Shown here in pieces: positions 4,353-7,913 of a stretch of DNA of 34,437 bases. The number at the start of each line of letters is the position of its first letter. The stretch's first letter is position 1. Source of the DNA: Bacteroidota bacterium (lineage in GTDB: Bacteria; Bacteroidota; Bacteroidia; Chitinophagales; LD1); assembly GCA_947461105.1 (NCBI GenBank), contig CANHIG010000012.1, forward strand, positions 1 to 34,437, written 5' to 3'. A program made the translations under genes and the position numbers. Under the pieces are notes generated by a model. It was not told the DNA's origin. It was given only the letters and a program-made list of their open reading frames with translations, and ran no database searches.

Positions 4353-5774
4353 CTAACATTCAGGCAATGAAAGTGGAATATTAACTGCCAATCCTCCGTC
4401 AGCAGTTTCTTTGTATTTGCTGTTCATGTCCTTAGCTGTTTCCCACATAGTTTTAATCACAGTATCTAAAGATACTTTTGCAAAATCGGGATCTCCTTGA
4501 AGAGCAAGCTGCGCAGCCGTGATGGCCTTTATAGCTCCCATTGTGTTGCGCTCTATACATGGAATCTGCACCAATCCGCCAATAGGGTCGCAGGTGAGCC
4601 CAAGATGATGTTCCATGGCTATCTCCGCTGCCTGAAGCACCTGTTGTGGTGTACCGCCCATACATTCCGCCAACGCACCTGCTGCCATAGCCGAAGACAC
4701 ACCAATCTCTGCCTGACAACCACCCATAGCTGCCGAAATAGTAGCACCATGCTTAAATAAAATTCCTATCTGCGCAGCAGTAGCCAAAAATTTCACCACA
4801 TCATCATCCGCTGAATCCATATGCTGTTGCTGATACATCAGCACAGCGGGAATTACCCCTGCAGCACCATTTGTAGGAGCCGTAACCACTCTGCCGAATG
4901 AGGCATTTTCCTCGTTTACAGCCAACGCAAAACAACTCACCCAATTCAGAATTTGAGGAAAAGAAGTAGCCGATTTTCTGATTTCACTACGCCACAATTT
5001 TTTATCGGTGTAAACATTGCCACCCAACAGTTTGCTGTGAATATCAAAGGCTCTGCGCTTCACATGCAGACCGCCAGGAAGAATTCCTTTAGTATTACAT
5101 CCTCTGAAAATACAATCTTCCATCACTTCCCAAATTCGGAATAATTCTTTGCGCGTATCTTCATCAGACCGCCAGGACTTTTCATTTTCCAAGACAATCT
5201 CTGAAATATCATTGCCCGAATTCATACAATTTTGCAGCAACTCATCAGAATCTTCATTCGCATATTTCACTTTAATGTGGCCTGTATTAGCCATTTCATC
5301 AGTGCCGTATTTCACTATGAATCCTCCGCCTACACTGTAATAAATCTCTTGCTTCAAAAGCACATCGCCTTTATAGGAAGAGAATCTGAGCGCATTCGGG
5401 TGATAGGGCAAGGTTTCTGATTTATGAAAAACAATATGCTGCTGAGGGTCAAAATCAATCACCTTTTTTGCGGCAAAAAATAGTTTCTTTTCTTCTTTGA
5501 TTTGCTGAATAAGCGGTTGCAATCTGTTAGTATCAAAAGTGTCGGGTTGCTCCAGCATCAGCCCCATCTGCACCGCAATATCAGTTCCGTGACCAATGCC
5601 CGTTTTCGCCAACGAGCCATATAAATCCACCACCACCCCGGTCACATCATCCGCAGCCTCCAGCTCAGCGATAAAATGAAGCGCAGCCTTCCACGGCCCA
5701 AGTGTATGAGAACTGGATGGCCCCACACCTATCTTAAACATATCAAAAACACTCAATGCTTCTACCTGACTCAT
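4353..5774 (-). CDS. sdaA: L-serine ammonia-lyase (L-serine dehydratase), single-chain type
   Basis: '[24 protein letters not shown]', '[15 protein letters not shown]', '[16 protein letters not shown]'. Confidence 0.93.
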
Positions 5775-5821: not shown

Positions 5822-5975
5822 TATATTTGTAAAGCTATTAGCCCTGCTGCTTTGAATATTGGGATAAAAAAATTAATATATTTATAAAATGAAGGATTAT
5901 AGCTATCAGACCTATACAGCAAAATTAGGTTTGGAATTCCTATAAATAAAAGGGGCAATTATTTTAAAGAAATAT

Positions 5976-6006
5976 TTTGCTGTAACAGGAAATAAAATTA
6001 GCTTAG
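5976..6006 (+). promoter_or_regulatory. Candidate Bacteroidota-type promoter for the cys leader: TTTG-N19-TAgcTTaG
   Basis: TTTG at 5976-5979, 19-nt spacer, TAGCTTAG at 5999-6006 (one mismatch to TAnnTTTG). The -7-like box ends 4 nt before the leader-peptide ATG at 6011. Confidence 0.5.
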
Positions 6007-6010
6007 CCAA

Positions 6011-6076
6011 ATGATCACAAGTTCTAGCTGTTTATCTTGTTTTTGTTGTTGTTCCGATAGTGGAAGGGCTTTGTGA
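6011..6076 (+). CDS. Cys/Ser-rich attenuator leader peptide MITSSSCLSCFCCCSDSGRAL (21 aa)
   Basis: atg atc aca agt tct agc tgt tta tct tgt ttt tgt tgt tgt tcc gat agt gga agg gct ttg tga. It has 5 Cys (3 consecutive) and 6 Ser, lies upstream of cysE, and its 3' end overlaps the antiterminator arm. Confidence 0.8.
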   Translation: MITSSSCLSCFCCCSDSGRAL

Positions 6077-6110
6077 TACATTAGTGTTATATAATTGATA
6101 GAAAAGCCCT
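6065..6110 (+). promoter_or_regulatory. Candidate antiterminator hairpin of the cysE-cysK leader
   Basis: agggcttt (6065-6072) is the exact reverse complement of aaagccct (6103-6110). It shares 6107-6110 with the terminator stem, so the two structures are mutually exclusive. Confidence 0.7.
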
Positions 6111-6132
6111 CTTAGTTTTAAGAGGGTTTTTT
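6107..6132 (+). terminator. Intrinsic terminator in the cysE 5' leader (attenuator)
   Basis: ccctctta (6107-6114), gttt loop, taagaggg (6119-6126), then tttttt (6127-6132); A residues at 6102-6105 can extend the stem into the T tract. It ends about 24 nt before the cysE ATG. Confidence 0.9.
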
Positions 6133-6156
6133 GTTTAAAATAGGTTAAAAGTATAA

Positions 6157-6984
6157 ATGAGTTTAATTAACGACATAAAAGACCTGGATAGCAGATTGGT
6201 CCAAAAACTTCCCTCTATAGAAAGGGCGCAGAAGTTTGGGGATGATTTAATTGATTTCCTATTTCCTGTGAGAGCTAAAAACAGAGGTGCTTCTGTTCTG
6301 ATAGACTTGCAATATGAAATGCTGCAAAAAGAATTTATAGCATTAGTGGCACCCATCAGCGAGCAGTATAACCTTGAAGAAGCATCCCTTTCAAAAGGTT
6401 TTTTTGAAGAACTCCAATATGTTTTTGATTCGCTCAAAAAAGATGCTGAATCTATTCTCGAATTTGACCCGGCAGCATACTCACTGGAAGAAGTAATTTC
6501 AGCATATCCCGGATTTTATGCGGTAGCTATTTACAGAATTTCGCATGTGCTTTATACCTTAAAAGTGCCTTTACTGCCTCGTATTTTATCTGAAGCAGCG
6601 CACAGCAAAACAGGAATTGATATTCATCCGGGCGCTACAATCGGCAGCGAATTTTTTATTGACCATGGAACGGGAATTGTGATAGGTGAGACTTCGGAGA
6701 TAGGTAATGGCGTAAAAATTTATCAGGGCGTAACGCTTGGCGCACTTCAGGTGGCAAAATCAGAATCGAACAAAAAGCGTCACCCTACTATTGAAGATAA
6801 TGTTACCATTTATAGCGGGGCTACTATTCTTGGCGGAGAAACTGTAATAGGACACGATTCAGTAATAGGAGGAAATGTTTGGCTTACTTCCTCTGTTGTG
6901 CCATTTTCATTAGTGTTTGCAACTCACGCAGTGAAAGTTCGAAATGCCAAAAATTTCAATGAGCCATTAAACTTTGTTATTTAA
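6157..6984 (+). CDS. cysE: Serine O-acetyltransferase
   Basis: Hexapeptide-repeat enzyme: '[45 protein letters not shown]...[21 protein letters not shown]'. Followed by a cysteine synthase gene. Confidence 0.93.
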
Positions 6985-7001: not shown

Positions 7002-7913
7002 ATGAAAGTAAACAACATTCTCGCAGTGATAGGCAACACGCCTCACGTAAAAATCAACAAGCTTTATGGAGCTGATGCGCAGGTATATTTTAAGCTAGAG
7101 CGACAGAATCCTGGGGCATCGATTAAGGACAGAATTGCATTAGCCATGATTGAAGATGCCGAGGCAAAAGGATTGATCAACAAAGATTCTACCATCATTG
7201 AGCCTACCTCCGGGAATACCGGAATTGGGTTAGCGATGGTGGCTGCTGTGAAAGGCTACAAATTGATTCTAGTAATGCCGGAATCGATGAGTATCGAGAG
7301 ACGAAGATTGATGGCTGTATATGGAGCACAGTTTGAATTGACTCCAAGAGAAAAAGGGATGAAAGGTGCTATTGAGAAAGCAACTGAGCTTGTTGCCAGC
7401 ACACCAAACTCATGGATGCCGCAACAGTTTAATAATCCTGCAAATATTGAAGTGCATAAAAGAACTACTGCACAGGAAATTATCAATGACTTTCCTGATG
7501 GATTGGATTATGTAATTACAGGAGTAGGAACAGGCGGACATATCAGCGGAGTAGCTGAGGTATTGAAAGCTAAATTTCCAAACCTGAAAGTGTTCGCGGT
7601 GGAGCCGGCAGCTTCTCCTGTGATTAGCGGTGGTCAACCTTCTCCGCATCCTATTCAGGGAATTGGAGCAGGGTTTATTCCCGGTAATCTGAAAACAGAT
7701 TTGTTAGATGGTGTAATCACTGTTACAAAAGAAGAAGCGTTTGAATATGCACAGCGTTCGGCAAGAGAAGAAGGCATCTTTGTGGGTATTTCATCAGGAG
7801 CATCATTGGCTGCAGTTGCTAAAAAATTGCCTGAGCTGCCAGCCGGAAGTAAAGTGCTTACATTCTGTTATGATACAGGTGAGCGCTACTTAAGTATCGA
7901 AGGCCTATTCTAA
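7002..7913 (+). CDS. cysK: Cysteine synthase (O-acetylserine sulfhydrylase), PLP-dependent
   Basis: '[17 protein letters not shown]', '[16 protein letters not shown]', '[10 protein letters not shown]', '[13 protein letters not shown]', 'GISSGAS'. 17 nt after cysE. Confidence 0.95.

Follow-up and report, generated by a model that had tools for sequence, protein, structure and literature searches.

A predicted cysteine-responsive transcription attenuator with a poly-cysteine leader peptide ahead of cysE-cysK in Bacteroidota

Introduction

In a Bacteroidota bacterium, a short open reading frame (sORF) rich in cysteine codons and a terminator-like hairpin stand directly ahead of the cysteine biosynthesis genes cysE and cysK. 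The question raised by this locus is whether the sORF acts as a leader peptide through which cysteine supply controls transcription of the two genes. Such control is familiar from the trpL and hisL attenuators of enterobacteria, in which the operon that makes the sensed amino acid is preceded by a leader ORF carrying regulatory codons, by two competing helices (2:3 and 3:4) and by a U-tailed terminator. Bacteroid-trp (RF01692) is an attenuator of this type in Bacteroidetes. The kind of mechanism is already known from these systems, and cysteine versions are on record in mycobacteria and, as a prediction, ahead of cysS in Rhodobacterales.

Mycobacterial polycysteine sORFs were predicted first in PMC1262725, where no intrinsic terminator was found, and also in PMC4633059. 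The precedent invoked by the original prediction for our locus is real, and the mycobacterial sORFs are themselves leaderless (Canestrari et al. 2020, doi 10.1111/mmi.14498, as cited in PMC13236596, PMC9094748 and PMC9031893). Within Bacteroidota, leader-peptide attenuators have been described in 5' UTRs ahead of amino-acid operons of Flavobacterium psychrophilum; conserved structured leaders there include those of pheA and hisG, and the main text names no cysteine operon (PMC9723704). We found no report of a cysteine attenuator in Bacteroidota among the open-licence papers searched, in line with the original prediction, which was aware of none.

Results

The cysE-cysK leader contains the parts of an attenuator

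The locus lies in a contig stretch of 34,437 nucleotides (the window) from an assembly of 2.5 Mb in 197 contigs. Its features are as follows.

5976..5979, + strand: -33 promoter element TTTG, with the -7 box 19 nt downstream
5999..6006, + strand: -7 box TAGCTTAG, Bacteroidota sigma-A type (TAnnTTTG), spanning -12 to -5 (position rule from PMC9723704)
6011..6076, + strand: leader ORF MITSSSCLSCFCCCSDSGRAL, predicted leaderless; poly-Cys sORF kept in relatives
6044..6052, + strand: putative sensor codons TGT TGT TGT (Cys-Cys-Cys), in frame with the promoter-defined ATG
6065..6072, + strand: segment 2, the predicted antiterminator 5' arm AGGGCTTT, within the final sORF codons; complement of 6103-6110, supported by covariation
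6103..6110, + strand: segment 3 AAAGCCCT, common to antiterminator and terminator (sequence, covariation, folds)
6107..6132, + strand: predicted intrinsic terminator, 3:4 hairpin with a U6 tail (fold; T-tailed hairpin also in relatives)
6157..6984, + strand: cysE, serine O-acetyltransferase (EpsC type, NF041874), proposed regulated gene 1
7002..7913, + strand: cysK, cysteine synthase A (TIGR01139), proposed regulated gene 2, 17 nt after cysE

Rechecking of the original prediction against the sequence revealed a base-exact match for the 21-codon ORF, in which Cys takes 5 of the 21 codons, and for its Cys triplet. Segments 2 and 3 are complementary at all 8 of 8 bases, the terminator reads ccctctta and taagaggg around gttt followed by TTTTTT, the two helices overlap at 6107-6110 and are mutually exclusive, and the cysE ATG is at 6157. 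The target genes had been named as serine acetyltransferase and cysteine synthase; both products scored over the profile cut-offs, with cysE at 157 bits against NF041874 (just above the cut-off of 150) and cysK at 416 bits against TIGR01139 (cut-off 351). It had also been claimed that there is no room for a separate cysE promoter. The claim is right for 6133-6156. The leader itself, however, contains a weak match to the -7 box (TACATTAG, 6077-6084), downstream of the sORF stop codon and upstream of the terminator. A hypothetical internal promoter at that box would skip the sORF and not the terminator.

The upstream neighbour is an L-serine ammonia-lyase gene (4353-5774, - strand). Because this gene is divergent from cysE, the terminator is not part of it and would act only on the cysE transcript. 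The ammonia-lyase, which uses up the CysE substrate, shares its intergenic region with the cysE leader.

Analysis of RNA folding revealed a structured leader, with a full-length fold of -39.3 kcal/mol compared with -23.9 for shuffled sequences (z -5.1) and a fold of -20.6 kcal/mol for 6077-6140 (z -4.8). We also folded the stretches that each ribosome position would leave free: the 2:3 antiterminator alone reached -14.0 when segment 4 was withheld, and the terminator reached -17.2 when segment 2 was masked. Adding segment 4 makes the terminator more stable than the antiterminator, and the switch must therefore be kinetic, like the classical systems. Segment 2 begins 13 nt past the last Cys codon and finishes right before the stop codon. 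This spacing fits attenuation, since a ribosome at the Cys codons would leave segment 2 free and a ribosome at the stop codon would cover it. From the sORF stop to the cysE start the distance is 80 nt. No Rfam family reached threshold in the leader or the whole window, and the Bacteroid-trp family of Bacteroidetes (RF01692) gave no match at E<=1. Matches to Phe_leader and AbsR25 were weak, under the gathering score, and were rejected.

The poly-Cys sORF is conserved across the family in frame, not in peptide

To examine conservation we used a family sample of 30 genomes, 24 of which had a cysE match. The original prediction depended on a Cys-rich sORF being present upstream of cysE in close relatives, and it was present almost everywhere: a strict script identified a Cys-cluster sORF in 21 of 23 upstream regions, compared with 0.48% of dinucleotide shuffles of the same regions (n=4400) and none on their opposite strand. 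One further Cys sORF (MHFIITAYCCIISPQKRSV, L016) was missed by the script and recognised by eye. A U-tailed hairpin then follows the sORF in the family leaders examined. Among the family cysE genes for which upstream sequence was available, L010 (genome G001) alone had no leader; a GC-rich repeat-like insertion occupies the leader's place there. The upstream region of L020 ends at a contig edge, and the same genome has a leader (L114) on another contig. A family-wide pattern search also returned matches in G001, G006, G019 and G027, which on inspection were judged to be chance.

Outside the Cys run the leader peptides are little alike (for example MISTNLNSCNICCCTYYPEGCW, MKNIPTCCCCCCGATGGGILFLLA and MLFIQTIFCCCCCSVLKGR). 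With the start set by the promoter, the Cys run kept its frame in all 19 loci, although its offset took six values in the range 15-30 nt. The combination of in-frame Cys-Cys-Cys at six distances with divergent peptides indicates selection on the codons, not on the peptide.

A consensus promoter places the predicted transcription start at the sORF

A sigma-70 promoter scan was uninformative for Bacteroidota, and our promoter calls rest instead on the Bacteroidota -7/-33 motif, in which the Flavobacterium sigma-A box TAnnTTTG occupies -12 to -5 (PMC9723704). A -7 box ending 4-9 nt ahead of the sORF ATG was found at 21 of 21 family loci; of the 86 remaining ATGs in these upstream regions, 2 had one. 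The TTG of the -33 element lay 17-22 nt upstream of the -7 box at 16 of 22 family loci (background 13%). In about half of the loci, the window included, the gap from box to ATG is exactly 4 nt, so that the RNA is predicted to begin with the start codon itself (its A is 6011 in the window). Two distant carriers, L054 and L059 (the latter from a MAG labelled Rikenella), have -7 boxes at 5 and 4 nt, respectively. A stronger-looking -7 box at 5926-5933, without a -33 TTTG at the correct distance, could yield a longer 5' UTR. Judged by the position of the consensus promoter, the leader ORF is probably leaderless, a feature overlooked by the original prediction.

The competing helices covary

The original prediction had named covarying 2:3 and 3:4 helices in relatives as the comparison to make; both helices are kept. 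The 2:3 pair is retained while its letters change, from AGGGCTTT/AAAGCCCT in the window to CTGAAGGG/CCCTTCAG in genus g3, CGAAGGG/CCCTTCG in part of g2, GCGCAGCGTGT/GCACCCTGTGT and CAAATGCAGTGTGC/GCGCCCTGTGTTT in g4, and GTGGA/TCCAC before cysM. Among 20 diverse representatives, true arm partners paired with a mean of -11.55 kcal/mol compared with -9.22 (sd 0.50) for swapped partners, and none of 20000 permutations paired as well as the true set. An ungrouped cross-genus swap is ambiguous because AAGGG/CCCTT is common to most arms. A short 2:3 helix, with 4-5 contiguous bp and energies of -5.8 to -7.3 kcal/mol, is seen in six leaders (L014, L015, L018 and L022-L024).

Related leaders precede other cysteine and sulfur genes

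Outside the family, 5 of 40 cysE regions from a spread of 247 class genomes had a leader; further leader-bearing loci are L035 (Flavobacterium tegetincola), L054 and L059. A search of 197 class genomes with the strict pattern gave matches of which nearly all looked like chance, which indicates that few members of the class combine the exact leaderless spacing with a fourth Cys codon.

Although only cysE leaders went into the training of our covariance model, it also matched leaders directly before an operon of a cysM-like synthase and Mec in 8 genomes, as well as leaders before DUF4395 genes. At the cysM-like + Mec/JAB loci (L229-L236), 8 of 8 with upstream sequence combine a Cys run with a terminator of the GCTCCAC type (three read by eye). 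The terminator sequence of the cysM-like leaders differs from that of the cysE leaders. This operon occurs in several genomes with no cysE match (G002, G005 and G011); the Prok-JAB/Mec gene downstream of its cysteine synthase was seen in L126. Terminator-bearing leaders before DUF4395 encode MCCCSHRQGLGYSWT, MCCCSVRQGVGYSWM and MKLNSQNITICCCCCCCKAQWISYWWA; poly-Cys leaders ahead of DUF4395 membrane-protein genes were seen at L238, L246, L247, L248 and L252. Their position suggests a role for DUF4395 in cysteine or sulfur metabolism. As judged from these matches, the predicted device would be a multi-operon regulon and not a curiosity of cysE, which the original prediction had overlooked.

In a second form of leader, identified at L214, L215, L223, L247 and L248, the Cys codons lie at the stop codon and a terminator is missing. 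Leaderless MKEIYLSHSCCCC, MKRINLIYSCCCC and MKEIFRSHSCCC precede paired Sulf_transp (YeeE/YedE) genes at L214, L215 and L223 (genomes G013, G017 and G003), and second-form peptides MFISKTYSIQSNTFMCCCCCN and MNSHNTYSFSCLHACCCCCMC precede DUF4395. A pyrimidine-rich spacer follows the sORF in L214 and L215. L216 is a weaker example whose peptide ends in SCSC. The leaders at L214, L215 and L223 may sense cysteine to control sulfur transport, either through Rho or at the level of translation.

Discussion

We are confident that the leader ahead of cysE-cysK is a ribosome-mediated, cysteine-responsive transcription attenuator, as originally predicted; conservation, covariation and spacing all support this reading. 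Weighing against it are the short 2:3 helix in six leaders, the lack of a leader at L010 and at most of the cysE loci sampled across the class, and the -7 box at 5926-5933. From the parts, their conservation, the reading frame, the covariation and the promoter position we infer how translation, stalling, termination and the response to cysteine would proceed. The first transcribed base would be the A of the sORF start codon (6011) or one very close to it, and the leaderless AUG would be loaded with a ribosome. If little Cys-tRNA is available, this ribosome would stall at TGT TGT TGT and leave 6065-6072 unpaired; this segment would pair with 6103-6110 once that is made, blocking the terminator so that cysE-cysK is transcribed. 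If Cys-tRNA is abundant, it would reach the stop at 6074-6076 and cover 6065-6072, and the terminator at 6107-6132 would form. Most likely, then, cysteine synthesis in this bacterium and its relatives is raised by way of the leader only under shortage of cysteine.

Other explanations would account for some of these features. One is that the leader works on translation, through ribosome loading on cysE or through coupling, with an incidental hairpin. The mycobacterial polycysteine sORFs are described as acting in this way (PMC13236596, PMC9031893), and the second form found here (L214, L215, L223, L247 and L248) resembles them. In the cysE leaders, however, a U-tailed hairpin and a competing arm are conserved, and the 80 nt between the sORF stop and cysE are too far for direct coupling; we regard a translational mode at this locus as very improbable. 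Slightly less likely still, in our assessment, is a functional small protein, for instance one binding metals or thiols, with a hairpin that just ends its own short transcript. Metal-binding peptides typically contain Cys clusters, and the ORF is indeed followed by a terminator, but the non-Cys residues are unconserved, the Cys position moves by whole codons, the final codons double as an RNA arm that covaries with the terminator, and the targets are consistently cysteine or sulfur genes. A metabolite-binding riboswitch or T-box that contains a Cys-rich frame by chance would also place a structured 5' leader ahead of an amino-acid operon; given that no Rfam family was detected at threshold in the window and that the conserved structure consists of two competing helices only, with variable spacers, we consider this chance next to nil.

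The attenuator proposed for cysE-cysK resembles trpL and hisL in its leader ORF, competing helices, U-tailed terminator and cognate biosynthetic operon. It differs in that it would sense cysteine, is predicted to be leaderless and has segment 2 in the last codons of the ORF. With the mycobacterial polycysteine sORFs it shares a leaderless start (here by promoter position), contiguous Cys codons and a place ahead of cysteine or sulfur genes. In the mycobacterial sORFs the Cys codons lie near the stop and regulation is described as translational, whereas the cysE leaders have a conserved terminator and antiterminator, and their main Cys run lies several codons before the stop. The second form (YeeE/YedE, some DUF4395) is nearer to the mycobacterial type and alone combines Cys codons at the stop with the lack of a terminator. 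In Rhodobacterales, uORFC-8-2 before cysS is a predicted Cys-codon uORF with an intrinsic terminator (PMC8632094), the same combination from which attenuation by cysteine is predicted here. That uORF has two tandem Cys codons and a cysteinyl-tRNA synthetase target in alpha-Proteobacteria, and the passage on it in PMC8632094 mentions no leaderless feature or biosynthesis regulon; our leader precedes cysE-cysK in Bacteroidota. The F. psychrophilum leaders are alike in belonging to Bacteroidota and in placing leader peptides ahead of amino-acid operons.

On balance we favour a wider reading, in which leaderless poly-Cys leader peptides of two forms would run a cysteine regulon in Bacteroidota. 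One form would be the attenuator with a terminator (cysE-cysK, cysM-mec and DUF4395); the other would lack the terminator, carry its Cys codons at the stop and perhaps work through Rho or on translation (YeeE/YedE). The regulon would have an origin independent of the mycobacterial sORFs. If this is true, Bacteroidota would sense cysteine without a regulator protein, joining genes of cysteine synthesis, sulfur carrier and sulfur transport, and would provide a second case of leaderless poly-Cys sensors beside mycobacteria, as well as a lead to the function of DUF4395. The leader mRNA would start at the start codon of its own sensor ORF. Leaderless mRNAs are reported to be rare in the phylum, with 5' UTRs of <10 nt accounting for ~3.7% in B. 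thetaiotaomicron (PMC7366714). Leaderless initiation and ribosome-polymerase coupling in Bacteroidota could therefore be studied naturally on a leader peptide of this conserved, leaderless kind.
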